DNA of 64,000 bases. It comes from Desulfobacula toluolica Tol2. Its GTDB lineage: Bacteria; Desulfobacterota; Desulfobacteria; Desulfobacterales; Desulfobacteraceae. Both the position numbers and the translations under genes were made by a program. The DNA lies in NCBI RefSeq assembly GCF_000307105.1, contig NC_018645.1, positions 3,123,501 through 3,187,500 on the forward strand. The letters are read 5' to 3'. The notes beneath the pieces were generated by a model that did no database searches, was not told the origin of the DNA, and worked only from the letters and a program-made list of their open reading frames with translations. This document shows, piece by piece, positions 3,466-47,600 of the stretch (positions within the stretch are counted from its first letter, which is position 1; every line of letters starts with the position of its first letter).

Positions 3466-5937
3466 TCATAACCGCCGCCTCTTCACCGGCAGGCTGATGA
3501 TGAATTTCGTACCCTCGCCTGGTATGGATTCAACGCTCATTTTGCCGTTATGGTTCTCAGTTATGATGAAATAAGAAATACTCAAACCGATACCCGTGCC
3601 ACTGCCGGTGGGCTTTGTAGTAAAAAAGGGCTCAAACACACGTTTTCGGGTCTTTTGATCCATACCGGGGCCGTTGTCCTCTATCTCTATTCTCACCATT
3701 CCAGCCTCAAGTTCATGAACCAGCCGCAGCACAAAGCAAGGTGTTTTTTGCTGACTGCCATTTGAATATTCCTGCATGGCCTCTGCGCCGTTGCGCAGGA
3801 TATTGAACAAAACCTGCTGGATTTTGCCTGATTCGCAAGAAACAAGTGGCAGATCATTTTCATATTCGCGCACAATCTTGATCCGTCGAAAATCATACTT
3901 CTTTTTCAGATCATAGTCGGTCCCGGCCAACTCCACTATCTGGTCCAGCAGGTCTGCCAAATTGTAAGAAGGCCATGATGAATCGCTCTTTCGAGCAAAA
4001 AAAAGCATGTTTGAAACGATCTCCGCAGCACGGCTGCCCGATTCACGAATATTGCCCAACATATCGATGATCTTGCGTTTTTCCATGAATGTCTGAATCT
4101 CTTCCATGGTTATACCTGTTTCCTCAGCTGCCTTGACATTTGCAGGAAGGTCGCTCCTGGTCAAACGGTTGCTTAAGACTTCAGCTGTCTGCATCATGCC
4201 GGAAAGTGGATTGTTGATCTCGTGAGCCATGCCAGCAGCCAGCCCGCCCACAGAAAGCATCTTTTCCGACTGCACAATCATCTCTTCAATGCGCACTTGC
4301 TCGGTTACGTCGTCCACGCGGATCACAGTTCCCTCCACACCATTTGCAACAAGCGGATAAACCGACACATCCTCATAGCGCGTTTCGCCGTTCTCCTTCC
4401 TGACCTGTCTGGAATCAATTTGTACTTCCCGTGTCCTAATTGCCTCACGAACCCGCTCCATCTCCGAAACCAGACGCGGAAAGGCTTGTTCCAAAGAAAG
4501 GCCCAGTGCCGCATCAGAAGAAATGCCGGTTATACGCTGTGCCGCATTGTTCCATTGGGTCACCTTGCCGTCAAGATCTAAACCGACTATCACAGAAGGC
4601 ATGGAGTCGATTATATTAGAAAGATAATTGCGCAGGCATCTGAGTTCCTCCTCAGTCCGTTTACGCTCCCAAAGCATCTTGTTGGCATCTTCGGCCATCC
4701 GGTCAAGCTCATCGAATTGAACAAGATCTCTGTTAATTAATTCATAAGAAAAAGCTGCCCTGTGAAAAAACGAGCTGAACAAATTGAAATCACCCTTAAG
4801 CCTGCGGTTAAATCGGCTGAACCAGAATAGAAACAAAATTATTATACCAATGGAAATCAAGACAAAGCAGAGAGTATCCTCCTTAATATGGCTGCTTAAT
4901 TCATCTTGCATCAAGGCAATATCCTTTTCCACATCATCAAGGTACACGCCAGCGCCGACAAACCATTGCAAATCAGGAATTCCATAAATAAAAGAGACTT
5001 TAGGCGATTCCTTATCAAGTGTATTCAATTTGACAAACGAATAGTAGATATAGTCCCCTCCAGGTTTTAAAGCAATGTTGTACTCCTTATCGAAAAGGCT
5101 TTTCATCTTTTCCGGATTTTTATTGAAAACCTCCCATAATTTTTTCGTTCCGGAAAACAGATGACCTTTTGAAACCAAGACATCCCCATTCATTCTGTTA
5201 ATAAATATATATCCTTGTTCGCCAAACCTTATTCTGCTGATAGCCGAGAGCAGCGTTTCTTTTATTTGCTCCTTAACGTCATCAACATAAAGACCGGCAC
5301 CGACATACCAGTCATATGGCTCGATTTTTTTGACGAAAGTGATTTTCTCAAAATCATTCCCGGCTGCATTGGGTTTTGTCCAGTGATATGCATAAAATCC
5401 TTCACCTGATTTATTTATAATTTCGGTCATGTCTTTGCAGCCATATTGACCGCGCGTATCCGTCATATCCCAAAGATTCAATCCCTCAAACCCTGGTTTA
5501 TCACCAGACAGTATAACCATACCATCCAGATGATGAACAAAATAATAACCGATTCCGTGTTCAAACCGGATGGGTCTTAAAGCGTCTATAATCATCTGCT
5601 GAATTTCAGGTGCGGTTTTGGTGGATTTATTCTGTTGATAAATATTTTCAGCGATGGAACATGCCTCATAAACCCTTGTCTTGATCTTTGTTCTTGTCAG
5701 CGCTGTGCTTTGTTCTTTTTCATAATTAATCATATCCACAACACGCAGAACCTCCTGCTTGATGATCTGTTTCTGACGGGCAATGTAATTTGTGCGCATT
5801 TGATCAGCGCGAAAACAGCCAACACGATACGAGCCGATAACATCAATGGCAATAATACCTGCACCAGTGCCTATCAGAAAAACAATTCCCCACAACTGAA
5901 TGAATCTGGTAAAAATAGTTTTTTGTTTCATTGTCAT
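3466..5937 (-). CDS. Membrane sensor histidine kinase, double Cache, PAS
   Basis: About 823 residues from the ATG at 5937 (MTMKQ); the ATG at 5931 has better spacing from AGGAG and may be the true start. The open frame extends upstream to 6108 but has no comparable RBS. Order: TM helix (about 12-34), a long periplasmic region with two Cache-type repeats (each ending in WYVGAGLY or WFVGAGVY), TM helix, PAS domain (SVIVGLDLDGKVTQWNNAA), HisKA with phospho-acceptor MAHEINNPLSG, and HATPase_c with an N-box near NILRNGAEAM, DNGPGMD and GTGIGLS. It probably senses a small organic ligand and phosphorylates an unlinked regulator. No receiver domain or adjacent response regulator is present. Confidence 0.88.
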   Translation of the reverse strand: MTMKQKTIFTRFIQLWGIVFLIGTGAGIIAIDVIGSYRVGCFRADQMRTNYIARQKQIIKQEVLRVVDMINYEKEQSTALTRTKIKTRVYEACSIAENIYQQNKSTKTAPEIQQMIIDALRPIRFEHGIGYYFVHHLDGMVILSGDKPGFEGLNLWDMTDTRGQYGCKDMTEIINKSGEGFYAYHWTKPNAAGNDFEKITFVKKIEPYDWYVGAGLYVDDVKEQIKETLLSAISRIRFGEQGYIFINRMNGDVLVSKGHLFSGTKKLWEVFNKNPEKMKSLFDKEYNIALKPGGDYIYYSFVKLNTLDKESPKVSFIYGIPDLQWFVGAGVYLDDVEKDIALMQDELSSHIKEDTLCFVLISIGIIILFLFWFSRFNRRLKGDFNLFSSFFHRAAFSYELINRDLVQFDELDRMAEDANKMLWERKRTEEELRCLRNYLSNIIDSMPSVIVGLDLDGKVTQWNNAAQRITGISSDAALGLSLEQAFPRLVSEMERVREAIRTREVQIDSRQVRKENGETRYEDVSVYPLVANGVEGTVIRVDDVTEQVRIEEMIVQSEKMLSVGGLAAGMAHEINNPLSGMMQTAEVLSNRLTRSDLPANVKAAEETGITMEEIQTFMEKRKIIDMLGNIRESGSRAAEIVSNMLFFARKSDSSWPSYNLADLLDQIVELAGTDYDLKKKYDFRRIKIVREYENDLPLVSCESGKIQQVLFNILRNGAEAMQEYSNGSQQKTPCFVLRLVHELEAGMVRIEIEDNGPGMDQKTRKRVFEPFFTTKPTGSGTGIGLSISYFIITENHNGKMSVESIPGEGTKFIISLPVKRRRL

Positions 5938-14257: not shown

Positions 14258-15118
14258 ATGATCTCCTGGTACTTTTTTGCCCTGCTTGCACTGCTGCTGA
14301 TGGGCATTCAGCGTTTTTTTTATAAGGTAGCGGCAGAAAAAAAATATCCCACCGAATGGGTAACCTTTTCTTTCATGGCCACGGTAACTTTGTTGAGTAC
14401 GGGAGTATACTTTTTCCAGCAGCACCATGAACTCAATATCATCTGGTTGATGACCATGTCTCTGATCAACAGCGCATCTTTTCTTGTGGCAACCGTGTCC
14501 CACATTGAAGCGCTCAAATATATCCCGGCAAACATAGCTTACAGCATCATCCGGTTAAACGTGGTGGTGGTGGCCGGTTTTTCCATTTTCTATTTCAAAG
14601 AACAAATTTCCCTGTTCCAGGGTATAGGACTGCTGGTTGCCGTTGCCGCCATGATCGTGCTGACGATACAGATGAGAGAAAACACGAAAAAAACAAAACA
14701 GGGACGGCGGGGAGCCGTATTTATCTTGCTGGCACTGCTGTGCGGTGCCACGGCAAGCATTTCATCCAAATTTGCAGCCATGCATGTGGACAAACTTGCC
14801 TTTATAGCCTTGTCATATCTTATGGGAATGATCGGGTCTTTGGGAATTACCAGGGCCTTGTCCTATGACAAGGCCAAGAAAAAACGCTCGGCCGCAATGG
14901 GCCTTGGCGTTGTCATGGGCGGGTTTAATTTTGCAGGGTTTTATGCATTTTTATACGCCCTGGAATGCGGCCCCCTGTCGCTTGTTGCCGCCATTGTGGG
15001 TATGCATTTTGTTATCGCCATTGTACTGTCCGCCATCATTTATCGTGAAAATATAAAACCGGCCGGGCTTGTTGGAATTTTTTTAACTGTCATATCGATT
15101 ATTTTGATTCGCATTTGA
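14258..15118 (+). CDS. EamA/DMT-family transporter
   Basis: 286 residues with about ten hydrophobic helices in two EamA repeats (about 1-135 and 150-286), the second separated by a basic loop (RENTKKTKQGRRG). Typical motifs include IPANIAYSIIRLNVVVVAGF near the end of the first repeat and VAAIVGMHFVIAIVLSAII near the end of the second. These inner-membrane carriers export metabolites or amino acids; the substrate is not predictable. Start ATG at 14258. Confidence 0.85.
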   Translation: MISWYFFALLALLLMGIQRFFYKVAAEKKYPTEWVTFSFMATVTLLSTGVYFFQQHHELNIIWLMTMSLINSASFLVATVSHIEALKYIPANIAYSIIRLNVVVVAGFSIFYFKEQISLFQGIGLLVAVAAMIVLTIQMRENTKKTKQGRRGAVFILLALLCGATASISSKFAAMHVDKLAFIALSYLMGMIGSLGITRALSYDKAKKKRSAAMGLGVVMGGFNFAGFYAFLYALECGPLSLVAAIVGMHFVIAIVLSAIIYRENIKPAGLVGIFLTVISIILIRI

Positions 15119-17867: not shown

Positions 17868-17919
17868 AGGCCATGAAGGCCGGCAGAAGAAATCTGCCGT
17901 TCCTTTGTGGCCTTTTTTT
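17868..17919 (+). terminator. Terminator or attenuator before the methyltransferase gene
   Basis: AGGCCA (17868-17873) and CGGCAGA (17881-17887) pair with TCTGCCG (17893-17899) and TGTGGCCT (17906-17913), separated by an internal loop, and are followed by a T7 run (17913-17919). The T-run ends only two bases before the GGAG RBS of the next gene, so it may attenuate the operon as well as end the amine oxidase transcript. Confidence 0.65.
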
Positions 17920-17934
17920 ATGGAGAAAAACATT

Positions 17935-18813
17935 ATGAATTACAATGAAATAAACTGGAATGAGGCTTGGAAACATGAAATGGACCTCTGGCACAATTCG
18001 TCCGGAAAAAGCTGCAAGGATTTCTGGGCTGATAAAAAATCAGCTGCTGTTTATTCCAAAAAGCATATTGAGCATCACCAGGAACGGATTGATAAAACAA
18101 TCAAGGGCCTGCCCCTTACTCCAAAATCACGTGTGCTGGATATTGGTTCAGGTCCCGGCAGCCTTGCCCTTCCCATGGCCGGGATTGTCAACTCGGTCAC
18201 CACAATTGAACCCTCTGCCGGGATGAATGCGGTCATGAAAAATTTCATGGAAGAAAAAGGAATCGAAAATATCATCCCCATTGAAAAAACCTGGGAAGAT
18301 GTGAACCCGGATATGGAGCTTGACCCGCCCTATGATCTGGTGATGGCTTCCATGTCCCTTGGCATGAATGATATCAAGGCTGCCATCGAAAAAATGAACC
18401 AGGTCTGCTCGGGTGTTGTGGTACTGTTCTGGCATGCCGGTATCCCTGGCTGGGAAGATATGCCAAAGGCATTGTGGCCAAGGTTGTTTGAGAAGCAATA
18501 CCATGGCGGCCCCAAGAGTGACATTTTGTTCCAAGTTCTTTACCAGATGGGTATTTATCCGGAAGTTAAGGTCTTTTCCAACCATTTCCATGAATTTTTT
18601 CCTTCAATGGAAGATGCCATAGACTTTTATTGCAAACGGTTTGACCTAATCCGGACCGAACACCTCCCCCTTCTTGAATCCTATCTTGAGGAAAAATGTT
18701 TTAAAACAGAGGAAGGCTTTGTTCACGGATTTGAGCATGTTTCCATGAAGTTTTCATGGAAAATTGAAGGAATAAGCCATGAAAAAGCTGCATACCATAA
18801 AAAAGCGGTATAA
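17935..18813 (+). CDS. Class I SAM-dependent methyltransferase, operon gene 1
   Basis: 292 residues from the ATG at 17935 (MNYNEINWNEAW), chosen because GGAG lies 9 nt upstream; an in-frame ATG at 17920 sits inside the T-run and is unlikely. SAM motif I is VLDIGSGPGSLALPMA (about residue 67), with an acidic motif II in TTIEPSAGM. The C-terminal half (GIPGWEDMPKALWPRLF, FFPSMEDAIDFY) is unlike common small-molecule methyltransferases and gives no substrate. Next gene begins before this one ends if its first ATG is used. The methyltransferase/binding protein/methyltransferase/TonB order suggests a role with an imported ligand. Confidence 0.75.
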   Translation: MNYNEINWNEAWKHEMDLWHNSSGKSCKDFWADKKSAAVYSKKHIEHHQERIDKTIKGLPLTPKSRVLDIGSGPGSLALPMAGIVNSVTTIEPSAGMNAVMKNFMEEKGIENIIPIEKTWEDVNPDMELDPPYDLVMASMSLGMNDIKAAIEKMNQVCSGVVVLFWHAGIPGWEDMPKALWPRLFEKQYHGGPKSDILFQVLYQMGIYPEVKVFSNHFHEFFPSMEDAIDFYCKRFDLIRTEHLPLLESYLEEKCFKTEEGFVHGFEHVSMKFSWKIEGISHEKAAYHKKAV

Positions 18814-19999
18814 AATGAAAAAGCTGCATAGACTCCTGGTAATGGCAGTTGTCCTGCTTTCATTGACAGGCACTGCCTTTTCCCAACAAAAGAATGCTGT
18901 TATGGTAACGGATTTCAGGGGCAAATCCATTGAGATCCCGTGCCGGATCAACCGGGTGGTCAACATTGATGACGGCATGATCGAAGCTGTCATGACCCGG
19001 CTGGGTGTGGTAAAAAAAATTGTGGGCATTGGATCTGCCTGTCTTCCGAAAATATGGTCCTATTCCTTTCCCACCATGGGCAGCAAGACCTATGAATACC
19101 GGGACGGAATGAATCCGGTGACCCATCTCAACCCCTGGCTCATGGACTTGCCCCTGGTGTCAAGATACGGAGCAGGCATTAATTATGAAAAAATTGCCGA
19201 TCTGAATCCCGACCTGATCCTTATCCGTACCGGCTCATGCTCCCTTTCAGCTGCGGAGGATATCCTGGGAAAAAGCATCTCCCTGCTGGAATCCTTAAAC
19301 ATCCCCCTGGTGGTCCTGAAGGGACCCAACACCTTTGACCGACCGGACATTGTGACCATCAGCAATGAAATCAAATTATTGGGACAGGTGTTCCAAAAGC
19401 AGGAAGAGGCTGAAAAACTGGCCGATTACCTTGAAAGTTGTGTGGAGATGGTCAGGAAACGAACTGTAGACATCAAGCCCTTAAACCGGAAAAAACTGCT
19501 GTTGCTGGGACTTTCTCCCAAAGCCAGAAGTCAGGGCGGGGCAGGCCATGTCAAAGGAATCGATACCATTCAGACCTATTTTCTCAAAAATTTTATCCAT
19601 GCTGAAAATGCCTATGACAGCAAAGGGGCCTGGAATATCCTTAATACGGAAAAGATTCTTTCCCTTGATCCGGATGTGATCGTACTGGTCACTTCCTGGG
19701 GATATCATCCGCCTTCAGAGCTTTATGAAGCCCCCTATTACCAGGATCTGAAAGACATGAGAGCAGTCCGTAACAGGACAGTCTGCGCCCTGCCCTGGAC
19801 TCCCTGCAATTGTGAAAAAAGACTGGAATATCCCATTGATGTCATGGTCATGGCCAAGGCAGCCTACCCGGAAAAATTTAAAGACATCCGGCTTGAACAA
19901 TGGCTTGTGGAATTTTATCAGAATGTTTATCAGGTTAATGTTAAAACCGCCAAAGAACTCAGGTCCTGCCAGTGGATGGACTGGACCTGTAAGGAGTGA
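18779..19999 (+). CDS. ABC-type periplasmic binding protein, FecB/BtuF-like
   Basis: 406 residues (394 if the ATG at 18815 is used). The first ATG follows GAAGGA at a good distance; the second lies inside a 16-bp direct repeat, ATGAAAAAGCTGCATA, at 18779-18794 and 18815-18830. A signal peptide (LLVMAVVLLSLTGTAFSQ) leads to a two-lobed helical-backbone receptor with NYEKIADLNPDLILIRTG and LDPDVIVLV, as in iron-siderophore, cobalamin and related metal-complex receptors. Unusual cysteines sit in TPCNCEK and near the C-terminus (SCQWMDWTCKE). No permease or ATPase is adjacent, so it must use an unlinked transporter. Ligand unknown; a metal or metallophore is inferred. Confidence 0.8.
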   Translation: MKKLHTIKKRYKMKKLHRLLVMAVVLLSLTGTAFSQQKNAVMVTDFRGKSIEIPCRINRVVNIDDGMIEAVMTRLGVVKKIVGIGSACLPKIWSYSFPTMGSKTYEYRDGMNPVTHLNPWLMDLPLVSRYGAGINYEKIADLNPDLILIRTGSCSLSAAEDILGKSISLLESLNIPLVVLKGPNTFDRPDIVTISNEIKLLGQVFQKQEEAEKLADYLESCVEMVRKRTVDIKPLNRKKLLLLGLSPKARSQGGAGHVKGIDTIQTYFLKNFIHAENAYDSKGAWNILNTEKILSLDPDVIVLVTSWGYHPPSELYEAPYYQDLKDMRAVRNRTVCALPWTPCNCEKRLEYPIDVMVMAKAAYPEKFKDIRLEQWLVEFYQNVYQVNVKTAKELRSCQWMDWTCKE

Positions 20000-20002
20000 C
20001 AA

Positions 20003-20662
20003 ATGGATACAGACGTGCAAGATATGACCAGAAAAGCCTTTTTCAATGAAAGAGCCGATACCTGGCTGGATAAATTTTACAAAGATCCTGAGACCGGAAT
20101 CCATGGCCGGCATTCAGAAAAGATAGAGAAAATCATTTCAAGTCTCAATATTGAGCCGGACCATAAGGTATTGGATGTGGGATGCGGCAGCGGGGTTCTG
20201 GTTCCCTATATCCTGAGCCGACTTTCTTCAAAAGGCAGGCTTTTTGAAGTGGATTATGCCGAAAAAATGATAACTAAAAACCGGAAGGTCCATGGGGATG
20301 ACAGGATCACCTTTGTCTGTTCGGATGTCATGGACCTGCCTCTTGAGATTGCCGGTTTTAATTCAATTATCTGTTTTGCCTGTTTTCCCCATTTCCGGAA
20401 CCAGAAAGCAGCTTTGGGAAAACTTGCAGGAATTTTAAAGCCAAACGGTATTCTGACCATTGCCCATCTTCTGTCGGCAAAAGAGATTGCCGATCACCAT
20501 GACGGGGAAAGCGCTGTGTCAAGGGACAGGCTCCCAGTGAAACATGAGATGGAAAATTTTTGTGAGCAGTGCGGCCTTGGCATCATGGAATTCACGGATG
20601 AACCCGGCCGATACCTTTTGTCGGCAAAAAAAGCGGCGCTAAAAATAAAGGTCAGCATATAA
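20003..20662 (+). CDS. Class I SAM-dependent methyltransferase, operon gene 3
   Basis: 219 residues. AGGAG lies about 6 nt before the ATG at 20003, 3 nt after the binding-protein stop, so it is in the same operon. Methyltransf_11/25-type fold: motif I VLDVGCGSGVLVPYI, motif II FEVDYAEKM, motif III VCSDVMDLPL, and HFRNQKAALGKLAGILKPNGILTI. N-terminus (RKAFFNERADTWLDKFY) is usual for the family. Substrate not predictable; it shares no close similarity with the operon's first methyltransferase apart from the SAM fold. Confidence 0.78.
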   Translation: MDTDVQDMTRKAFFNERADTWLDKFYKDPETGIHGRHSEKIEKIISSLNIEPDHKVLDVGCGSGVLVPYILSRLSSKGRLFEVDYAEKMITKNRKVHGDDRITFVCSDVMDLPLEIAGFNSIICFACFPHFRNQKAALGKLAGILKPNGILTIAHLLSAKEIADHHDGESAVSRDRLPVKHEMENFCEQCGLGIMEFTDEPGRYLLSAKKAALKIKVSI

Positions 20663-20856
20663 AATAATCAGATAAAGGGGGAAAACAGGTGTTGATCCTG
20701 CAAAGATACTGAACACCTGTTTTCCCGTGCCCTCCAGGGGAGGAGAATCAAGCATACCAGCAACCCTCCTTTCCTGTCAATCGGGCCTTTTAAAAACCAT
20801 GGGGGATATCACCCCAAACGGAGGAGTGCCTCCAAAAAAAGGAAAGGATAAAATCT
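20663..20856 (+). promoter_or_regulatory. Structured leader before the TonB receptor
   Basis: GGGAAAACAGGTGTT (20679-20693) and AACACCTGTTTTCCC (20712-20726) form a perfect 15-bp hairpin with an 18-nt loop. Further downstream are TGGGG/CCCCA around GATATCA-like sequence (20800-20816) and GGAGG-AGTG-CCTCC (20820-20833), then AGGAAAGG about 9 nt before the ATG. It could be terminator plus new promoter, an operator, or a cis-regulatory RNA. I could not match it to the cobalamin, TPP or Moco riboswitch consensus. Confidence 0.45.
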
Positions 20857-22956
20857 ATGAATGTTTGTAAACCCTTGCACAACTTATGGGGTTGTATGAT
20901 TCTGGCAGGTTTTCTGATGTGCCAGGCCATGACTGCAAATGCCGGAGAAACAGAAAATCAGGCGGTGAACCTGGGTGAAATAACGGTCATGGCAGCCCAG
21001 CCGGGTGTTGAAATCACATCGGGAAAAACCGTGATCACCATGGACAAATTTATCAAACCGGGCTCTTTAACGACCTTAAATGATGTACTCACAGAAATCG
21101 GAGGAGTGGATGTACAGCGAAGCAATGCCCTGATGGCCGGCCCCGGGGATGAGGTTTCCATCCGGGGACTGAATGAAGGACGGCTGGTAATCGAAATTGA
21201 CGGCAGGCGGATCAACCAGACCGGTCACATGGGACGATATATTGTTGACTGGTCCACCCTGACTTTGGACGATGTGGACCGGATCGAAATTATCAGAGGC
21301 GGTCATTCAGTGCTTCACCCCTTTGCCATCGGCGGTGTCATCAATATTATCACCAAAAAAGGCGGGGGCGGAGAAAAGATAGCCAAAGGCAAGGTCAGGG
21401 CAGGATATGGCCGTTATGACACCTGGAATACGGCTGCATCCATTGACGGCAGTGCCGGTAAACATACGGATTTCCATTTTTCCGGGGCCAAACAGGAGAG
21501 TGACGGATACCTGAAAAATAATTTTCAAAAGACCAAATCCTTTAACGGACATCTGGACTTTCATCTGCCCAGTGAGATCGGTCTTGAGCTGGGTGTGAAA
21601 TATTCCGAGGTTGACTACGGCATGCCGGTTATCAATGATCCCAATGATTTCAATTCAGGGGTGGCAGCACTTTATGATCCTGACTATCCTGTTTTCAGCA
21701 GGTCCAGGGACCAGCTGCGCCACCTGAACTGGCCCCAGCTGCCAGGTTCGGATACGCCTGAATGGGAAAAGCATACCACTTATCTGGATGCCATATTCAG
21801 AATTCCGGCAGGTCCGGGAAAGATAAAAGTTCACGGTTTCATGACTGATGGACGCCGATGGACCAGACTTTACGACAAAAGCGGAACATTTTCCCGGGAC
21901 CAGTTCATGGATGACCGGACCCAGGGAATGATCCTTGAATATGGAGATGTCAGACTTTTTGACAACCATGTTTTCACCTTTGGCCTGGAATACCAGGAAC
22001 TGGGTCAGCCTTCGGGCACCAGGGCCATTTATAAGGTTAAATCCGGGTATCTCCAGGATATCATCACCCTGGGGCCCAAATGGACCCTGACCCCCGGGGT
22101 CAGGTATTACCAGGTGGACAAGGCAACCTATTATTCCTGGATGGAAATGGGGTATGCGGCCATGCCACCGGGATGGCCTTTCAGTGTTCCCAACAGCGGG
22201 AAAACCGAAACTGACTCGGACTTTTTCCCCAGTCTGAAGGTGGATTATAAAGCCACACAGGATACCACCCTTTATGCTGCAGCCAGCCGGTCATACCGGC
22301 TGCCCTGCCCCTGAGATTATTATTGGTGGGCGCGGTGCGCCTCCGAAACCAATACCTCTCTGGAACCTGAAACCGCCATGGAATATGAAATCGGGGTGGT
22401 TCATAATTTTGACAAAATAAGCCTCAGGGCTGCAACCTGGTATTATGATATCAAAGATTTTATAAATGATAACGGCATTACGTCACCCGGATCAGGAGCA
22501 GGTTCCAATTGCCTGTACAATATTGACCATCTGGAACTCTCTGGTTTTGAACTGGAAGCAGCTATTGAATTTTCAAAAAAATTAAGAGCCACTGCAGCCT
22601 ATGTATTCCAGGAATATAAAGTGGCACAGACCGGCAATGAACAGGACTGGACTTATTATCTGCCTGCCACCCTTCCCAAGCACAAGGTAAAGGTCATGGG
22701 GAAATATGAAATCATTCCTCAAGGATGGCTCCAGGTCAGTGCAAAATATGTCGGAGCAAGGGATGCCCAGAAAGGCGATGAACTTGAGGATTATATTGTC
22801 TGTGATGCCGGTTTTGAAAAAAAATTCAAATTTAACGGCCTGAATTATACTTTGAATCTTTTTGTCAATAATTTAACCGGAACCAATTACCAGGAGATCA
22901 GCGGATACAGCATGCCCAAACAGGTGTGGGGTTTTATGATGGGGCTTGAGTTTTAA
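20857..22956 (+). CDS. TonB-dependent receptor with one in-frame TGA (candidate selenoprotein)
   Basis: 699 codons in one frame, interrupted only by TGA at 22312-22314 (codon 486). Signal peptide to about residue 29, a short N-terminal extension, plug domain (about 50-165: VDVQRSNALMAGPGDEVSIRGLNEGR, IEIIRGGHS...GGVINIITKKG), then a beta-barrel ending in KQVWGFMMGLEF with terminal Phe, as outer-membrane barrels require. The reading frame on both sides of the TGA is conserved barrel sequence (SYRLPCP, TGA, DYYWWARCASETN), with a typical LEPETAMEYEIGV following. Either Sec is inserted, the gene carries a nonsense mutation, or the base call is wrong. It imports a large ligand, likely a metal complex, with the adjacent binding protein. 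Confidence 0.8.
22322..22353 (+). other. SECIS-like hairpin downstream of the in-frame TGA
   Basis: ATTGGT (22322-22327) pairs with ACCAAT (22348-22353), and GGCGC (22329-22333) pairs with GCGCC (22337-22341) around a GGT apical loop (22334-22336). The loop starts 19 nt after the TGA. Bacterial SECIS elements sit within the coding sequence directly after the UGA, with a short stem and a G/U-containing apical loop at about this distance. The bulged U of the E. coli element is not clearly present. Confidence 0.45.
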
Positions 22957-46976: not shown

Positions 46977-47600
46977 CGTTCCGCGTTTCCTTTGTTATCA
47001 CAGGATATATACGTCTCCCCTTCAAAGGAAACTCCTATGGCTGAACTCCTTCAACCGCTATTCTGAGATTCCTTATACCAGTTCCATGTTCCGCCCTTCG
47101 GCTCCAACATTTCTGTCACTTTCCAGCAGTTTTACCCTCTGATACGTCACCGCATCTTCATCGGCTACCGGTTTTACGCCTACTATGGCTTCATCTGAAA
47201 ACCCTCTGTCCATAACGGCTACATTTCTGTTCCGCTTAGGGCTTGGCTGTCGTAGTTACAGCGGCTCGGTACAGACGGCTCTTCACCGGGTAAGGTCATA
47301 CACTTTCATTGCCCACCCACCTCTCATACCCTGCGGAATTACGGAAAGGATTTCGGGCTTCGATAATCGGAGGTATCTCGCCCATTCCGCCTGGCCTACC
47401 GGAGGTTCACACCAAGTTTGGGTGACAAATTTGACGCAGGCTTCCTTCAGATCCCTCATTGGCTTTCCATCACCGGTTGTTCCCTCTTCGGGCAGATCCG
47501 GAAAGTTTCTTCGGGCACCCTTGCCGTTGTCTATACATTCCCTCCTTTCAGGGCTGTAGCTGGACTTTCACCAACAAGTTTATGACCATGCCGGTCACAC
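46371..47600 (-). mobile_element. Group II intron, 5' fragment
   Basis: On the minus strand the intron starts at 47600 with GTGTGACCGGCATGGTC and the following AACTTGTTGGTGAAAGTCC, typical of group II 5' ends. About 620 nt of structured RNA precede the maturase gene. The insertion site is shown by IS3 copy 2, where the same flanking sequence (CCCGTCGGA then AGGGGTTGG, about 51698) is uninterrupted. The 3' part of the intron and the neighbouring 3' half of orfB were deleted together. Confidence 0.8.

Follow-up and report, generated by a model that had tools for sequence, protein, structure and literature searches.

Selenocysteine (Sec) is best known from intracellular enzymes. TonB-dependent receptors with Sec are already catalogued in NCBIfam, in which NF049947 is entitled 'TonB-dependent receptor, PCPU motif-type' and NF049944, NF049946 and NF049945 stand for the PUIUD, CU and FCYXU types, respectively. 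In the literature, deep-Sep lists a Sec-containing TonB-dependent receptor in Desulfosarcina sp. BuS5 (PMC12013277) and a review tables such a receptor as the FCYXU type (PMC13188914). The window analysed here, a stretch of 64,000 nucleotides of Desulfobacula toluolica Tol2 (contig NC_018645.1, positions 3,123,501 to 3,187,500 of the forward strand; assembly GCF_000307105.1, analysed as a single contig of 5,197,905 bases), encodes a TonB-dependent receptor with one in-frame TGA, which the original prediction had read as Sec in a C-P-U arrangement. Over residues 16-699 this receptor scores above the cut-off of NF049947 (Table 1), and its motif is the one named in that listing, which gives no ligand, operon or leader RNA. 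The scores with NF049944, NF049946 and NF049945 are 456, 410 and 229 bits, respectively, all below their own cut-offs. NF049944 and NF049946 match the sister types, and PUIUD and CU receptors align a Sec with residue 486 of the window receptor; PUIUD, CU and FCYXU receptors differ from it in the pattern of Sec and Cys residues, and PUIUD and CU receptors also in their neighbouring genes. PCPU as a term for this receptor was not found in the open-licence literature. The C-P-U arrangement had been described as unfamiliar, but this kind of receptor is already in NCBIfam, and therefore the core of the finding is not a discovery. Worth following are the Sec column shared between receptor types, a binding protein with four invariant Cys residues and the leader RNA before the receptor gene.

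BtuB and OprC show 19% and 17% identity to the window receptor, respectively. With the BtuB models TIGR01779 and PRK10641 the receptor reaches 85.7 of the required 599.7 and 74.9 of the required 836, which does not place it in BtuB. OprC binds copper through Cys and Met of the plug and His and Met of the barrel, not through loop 7 as predicted for the window receptor. To our knowledge, neither BtuB nor OprC contains Sec. A DUF4198 protein binds Ni2+ with a Kd of 18 nM, and TonB-dependent receptors and NikR are reported as its neighbours (PMC12537917, 2025). These nickel neighbourhoods resemble the system described here in that DUF4198 proteins with an N-terminal His are encoded in many of the relatives' loci and in that the leader RNA of the window also stands on two DUF4198 operons of the same genome. 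They differ in that the receptors of both these DUF4198 operons lack an in-frame TGA and in that the window operon has no DUF4198 gene within 7 kb. The best overall explanation, to which we assign a probability of about 0.6, is that the window receptor is a Sec receptor that captures a transition-metal chelate of the nickel or cobalt type by selenolate and thiolate groups.

The in-frame TGA and the hairpin downstream of it

Re-reading of the gene gave the same frame and the same TGA as the original prediction, namely 699 residues followed by a terminal TAA, with codon 486 as the sole internal TGA, bordered by SYRLPCP on one side and by DYYWWARCASETN on the other. The Pfam domains PF07715 (plug) and PF00593 (barrel) identify the product as a TonB-dependent receptor. 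The plug and part of the barrel lie N-terminal of the TGA and the remaining barrel lies C-terminal of it, in agreement with the earlier claim of conserved barrel sequence on both sides. The predicted model has a predicted local distance difference test (pLDDT) score of 82.2 and a barrel of 22 strands (counted by hand), and the fold matches agree.

Among 389 genomes of the order, 13 close receptors were found at 59-100% identity, that of the window among them, each with one TGA; the next match stands at 34%. When 395 genomes of the phylum were searched with a profile, 11 further receptors of the PCPU type came up (49.6-59.9% identity), again with one TGA each. The motif RLPCPUDYYWWARC with its TGA is present in 24 of 24 close receptors (24 genomes, at least 49% identity), and no equally close receptor without the TGA was found among the loci read. 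The same genome has selA (4.8e-160), selB over its cut-off, tRNA-Sec (selC; 76.5 bits, anticodon tca) and selD, which itself has one internal TGA. In one relative, SelB (L121:6307-8226, minus strand) and tRNA-Sec (L121:8300-8391, minus strand) are encoded directly upstream of the PCPU receptor. Of the checks put forward with the original prediction, the alignment of homologues at codon 486 and the search for selA, selB, selC and selD came out in favour of Sec, as did the conserved and covarying hairpin described below.

Folding of positions 22300-22365 gives an inner stem with a GGU loop 19 nt past the TGA, as pointed out earlier. The minimum free energy is -21.8 kcal/mol with a z score of -2.12, and 6 of 200 shuffled sequences are equally good, so that the single-sequence hairpin is only moderately above chance; conservation strengthens it. 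Codon choice within the hairpin is locked in the 24 genes: Ala at +6 is GCG in 24/24, Arg at +7 is CGG in 23/24 and Cys at +8 is TGC in 24/24, the next Ala being variable. Outside the hairpin, the proportion of invariant residues with one codon in at least 95% of genes is 0/64 for four-fold, 0/30 for six-fold and 4/65 for two-fold degenerate codons. In a set of 35 hairpins (23 PCPU and 12 PUIUD, 33 of them distinct), 93.9% of the cells in stem columns 17-23/27-33 are paired, and two pairs are compensatory, with 13 cells changed on both sides. The covariation of this stem is 0.208, compared with at most 0.050 when the stem is slid, and 0 of 500 shuffles reach it. The hairpin covaries between the PCPU and PUIUD subfamilies.

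Several observations count against this reading. The GGU-loop register is the best fold of the window's own sequence, yet it shows no covariation, and it was rejected as the conserved register, with 75.4% of cells paired as against 93.9% for the other. In 9 of 33 sequences, that of the window receptor among them, pair 20-30 of the conserved register does not form, where a second register is available. Two of five hairpin measures (pairs changed on both sides and extra pair types) are not above shuffles, 329 of 500 being as high. Cys at the Sec column, the usual supporting evidence, was seen in no homologue, and no Cys intermediate was found.

The downstream hairpin of a bacterial selenoprotein is seen here in the fold, the codon lock and the covariation. 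Because the TGA is present in all 24 close receptors, the hairpin is codon-locked and covarying and selA, selB, selC and selD are all present, the sequence evidence indicates that UGA 486 is almost certainly decoded as Sec and that the product is a genuine selenoprotein. A plain nonsense mutation, which would make the gene a pseudogene, could not be ruled out from the window by itself, given the z score of its hairpin, but the same-codon TGA in every close receptor, the open frame beyond it and the conserved barrel past it rule out this explanation with a negligible residual probability.

Table 1. Features of the receptor operon, with positions in the window
Feature	Positions	Strand	Basis or remark
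Possible attenuator, a terminator-like hairpin and T-run immediately upstream of MT2, which opens the operon	17868..17919	+	direct reading
MT2, S-adenosylmethionine (SAM)-dependent methyltransferase (ATG 17920; TTG start listed at 17905)	17920..18813	+	Pfam Methyltransf_25 3.3e-8
Binding protein, Peripla_BP_2, with Cys88, Cys154, Cys343 and Cys345	18779..19999	+	PF01497 9.4e-18
MT1, SAM-dependent methyltransferase	20003..20662	+	PF13649 2.6e-16
Structured leader RNA with a GTCAA box, the long hairpin P1 and probably a second stem	20680..20780	+	R1 140.1 bits, R3 76.1 bits
TonB-dependent receptor, 699 residues, one predicted Sec (PCPU type)	20857..22956	+	NF049947 1210.3 bits, cut-off 800
Cys484 codon of C-P-U	22306..22308	+	invariant, 13-sequence PCPU alignment
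TGA, predicted Sec486	22312..22314	+	24/24 close receptors
Hairpin resembling a Sec insertion sequence, GGU loop 22334-22336	22321..22354	+	covarying core columns = 22328-22344
Cys494 codon, predicted loop 7	22336..22338	+	invariant, PCPU alignment; model
Cys552 codon, predicted end of loop 8	22510..22512	+	invariant, PCPU alignment; model

Residues at the Sec site and candidate ligands

The residues at the Sec site are C-P-U in the window type, U-I/V-U-D with two TGAs per gene in the PUIUD type (12 genes read) and G-C-U-D with one TGA in the PGCU type (9 genes read). The column of U486 is U in 29 of 31 aligned sequences, the other two being non-Sec receptors, suggesting that the Sec column is common to the three motif types. 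The receptor of locus L094 has YCIIU at the site, resembling the published FCYXU type. Thirteen distant receptors (L093, L095-L106) have no TGA at the site, with Pro in 11 and a gap in 2. Pro or Gly in homologues, with no TGA in relatives, had been named beforehand as the pattern that would speak against Sec; Pro is found in the distant receptors, whereas every close one has TGA. Since the distant receptors mostly have Pro in this column, Sec seems to have replaced the Pro of a general motif. A G-C-U-type receptor (C1:4630577-4632556; L049:8499-10565) is the second Sec receptor encoded in the same genome. It adjoins an importer of the SaoP/SaoX-like kind, the binding protein of which likewise contains an in-frame TGA (UDP; L049:10587-11561), and an ExbB-like gene and genes for an activase and a double-cubane reductase are also nearby.

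The C-P-U motif could be a redox pair, in which a selenenylsulfide gates or reduces the ligand, instead of a metal site, and C-x-U is tabled as the motif of several predicted redox selenoproteins in the review (PMC13188914). However, the partner of Sec varies: at position -2 it is C in PCPU and U in PUIUD receptors, and PGCU receptors have C at -1. A redox pair is quite improbable. In addition, we are not aware of a reductant that would act on the outside of cells of this kind.

In the predicted model, Sec486, Cys484 and Cys494 belong to extracellular loop 7, with Cys552 where loop 8 ends, and all four face outwards. There is about an even chance that these residues capture a transition-metal chelate from the outside by acting together as a selenolate/thiolate site, and the metal ligand suggested in the original prediction is plausible and gains context here. 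Nickel or cobalt is favoured because of the links through DUF4198 and the leader RNA, and on this neighbourhood basis a nickel or cobalt compound is our tentative choice of ligand. In the proposed mechanism, SelB and tRNA-Sec would read UGA 486 as Sec, directed by the hairpin that follows, Sec486 together with Cys484, Cys494 and Cys552 would bind the metal chelate at the outer face, and TonB would drive it inward. The four-Cys binding protein would then take up the chelate in the periplasm, and an importer of the FecCD/BtuC type, whose genes lie beside the operon in relatives and at another place in this genome, would carry it in. The methyltransferases MT1 and MT2 may modify the ligand or its carrier, and the leader RNA would control expression of the receptor gene. 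If this is true, a cell-surface receptor would spend selenium on ligand capture, which would be a different use of Sec, and the system would show how bacteria of sulfide-rich sediments obtain metals that sulfide would otherwise precipitate. Together with the leader RNA that other operons share, the conserved Sec column and the four Cys residues of the binding protein make the question of import concretely testable.

Neighbourhoods were counted in 23 of the 24 PCPU loci (L074, on a 3.5-kb contig, was left out), and the counts are lower bounds because several contigs end close to the receptor. In 9 of 23 PCPU and 6 of 11 PUIUD loci a DUF4198 gene lies no more than 7 kb away in the same orientation, and His lies right behind the likely signal-peptide cleavage site in 13 of 15 DUF4198 starts, as judged by eye. 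On the other side of the balance, 14 of 23 PCPU loci, the window's included, have no DUF4198 gene within that distance (some contigs end early), and DUF4198 often stands beside TonB-dependent receptors anyway (PMC12537917). Neither a nickel nor a cobalamin riboswitch was found in the 24 loci scanned. In seven upstream regions, one form of the NikR operator was not matched even when 4 of 14 positions were allowed to differ, and a second form had only matches with 3 of 12 positions mismatched. Moreover, an orthologue of the four-Cys binding protein (L068:13466-14662) is encoded near a receptor (L068:8422-10545) that has neither Sec nor Cys at the site.

A protein with the TP_methylase fold is encoded near 15 of 23 PCPU and 8 of 11 PUIUD receptors. 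The ligand could be a corrinoid or another metallated tetrapyrrole, with Sec or Cys as an axial or capture ligand, but the receptor fold is common to all TonB-dependent receptors, the 24 loci scanned hold no cobalamin riboswitch and there is no known way in which a SAM-methylase fold could use SAM outside the cytoplasm, which leaves a tetrapyrrole rather unlikely. Cobalamin and NiCo riboswitches were dropped as a ligand clue, since none was found in these loci. As separate observations, the TP_methylase (PF00590) proteins beside Sec receptors (L054:10144-11049 and its relatives) mostly start like signal peptides, and the PUIUD receptor locus L059 has four cobalamin riboswitches (5507-5729, 14300-14502, 18014-18219 and 18339-18524).

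The site could also bind a soft toxic metal or organometal (mercury, arsenic, antimony or copper), in the way suggested for the Sec-assisted organometallic (SAO) system. The SaoP- and SaoX-like genes at the PGCU paralogue stay far under their cut-offs (170.6 of 295 and 63.2 of 300, respectively), and no Sao component was found among the 7 window proteins scanned. HgcA is over its cut-off in 5 of 13 PCPU genomes, compared with 162 of 389 genomes overall, and is not found in this genome. A link to mercury methylation was dropped because HgcA does not track with the receptor, and a toxic-metal ligand is unlikely.

The leader RNA before the receptor gene

The leader element between MT1 and the receptor gene is present in all six operons of the window type and also, by eye, before other Sec receptors. 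The window copy is a training member of both models by which it is scored in Table 1, R1 and R3. In the first 7 pairs of P1, the part counted on a realigned set of 19 sequences, 97.0% of the cells are paired and two pairs are changed on both sides (16 cells). Covariation of P1 is 0.310, compared with 0.178 in shuffles (0 of 500 reach the observed value) and at most 0.222 when slid, whereas the pair- and type-counting measures are not above shuffles, of which 307 and 500 of 500, respectively, score as high. RNAalifold gave no base pair on the first alignment of the 19 sequences, and hence model R2 holds sequence only and was not used. In the six closest copies the covariation term is unfavourable (+0.89), yet 3 pairs are changed on both sides; the second stem is drawn from single-sequence folds and this six-copy alignment.

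Of the 19 elements that went into model R3, 17 were chosen for their position before Sec receptors, and the scores of R3 reflect mostly sequence because only 7 pairs are in the model. R3 gives 78 sites in 59 of the 389 genomes of the order (including the window copy, L164, L177 and L178) and 24 matches in 47 sources, one of which is a weak reverse-strand piece. The other 23 matches include 17 training members; they precede 13 of 23 PCPU, 8 of 11 PUIUD and 0 of 8 PGCU receptors, and two are located elsewhere. In the 70 order sites inspected, a same-strand TonB-dependent receptor comes next in 58, and a TonB-dependent receptor or DUF4198 in 62; when 15 training members are set aside, the respective counts are 43 and 47 of 55. 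The TonB profile for this survey derives from receptors of the Sec type and from two others (A1), and at edge loci the end of the element was guessed by pattern. The 8 sites outside the inspected set are G092, G344:C58 and G308:C58, which lie before Sec receptors, and G097, G280:2622466, G185, G147 and G384:C137, which are among the weakest. DUF4198 is present at 14 of the 40 sites taken with up to about 4 kb downstream. Both other leader copies of the same genome head a TonB-dependent receptor followed by DUF4198, and one of these operons also has a gene for a small partner protein that we take to be NikL-like, for which Pfam gives a sub-threshold DUF4198 match. Since the element also heads other TonB-dependent receptors and DUF4198 operons, it is a leader of TonB-dependent receptors and not specific to Sec. 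No Rfam family reaches its gathering score at the window copy or at the relatives' copies scanned. The leader RNA probably controls receptor expression. A wider view, in which outer-membrane receptors for nickel or cobalt are selenol-based and the leader RNA shared with DUF4198-TonB operons senses the metal or its chelate as a new riboswitch-like class in Desulfobacterota, is doubtful.

The operon and its neighbours

The genes for MT2, the binding protein, MT1 and the receptor stand together in six loci, and MT2 is found in 6 of 23 PCPU loci, the window's being included in both counts. In the five relatives, genes for a FecCD permease and an ATPase precede these four genes; Desulfobacter latus is a named relative with the same operon. 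In D. toluolica the best permease (67%) and the ATPase are encoded at C1:3719302-3721199, away from the window operon. A remnant of a binding protein, of 106 residues and apparently made of N- and C-terminal parts only, lies beside them (L115:7302-9572 = G000:C1:3719302-3721572).

Cys88, Cys154, Cys343 and Cys345 of the binding protein are invariant in 10 orthologues, the window's included (8 aligned and 2 more). The distant Peripla_BP_2 proteins of L055, L059, L069 and L120 lack them, as does the second one in L068. Of the Cys pairs to which the original prediction had drawn attention, PCNC (Cys343 and Cys345) is therefore invariant, together with Cys88 and Cys154, whereas the C-terminal SC...TC is not. 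The model of the binding protein has a pLDDT of 73.1, and its fold does not pick a ligand because the matches span proteins that bind molybdate, nickel and siderophores.

The hairpin with a T-run before MT2 is a possible attenuator. Similar terminator-like hairpins (GCCAxGAAGGC..., T-run) were seen by eye before the operon in L018 and L050-L053 and before the permease in L115, and a like hairpin also stands before the receptors in L062, L064, L116, L121 and L122. A promoter formed by TTGACA (17764) and TATACT (17782) before the operon is not claimed because the two elements are just 12 nt apart. Elsewhere in the window, positions 47295-47462 on the minus strand match a group II intron (D1-D4-3; RF02001, 77 bits).
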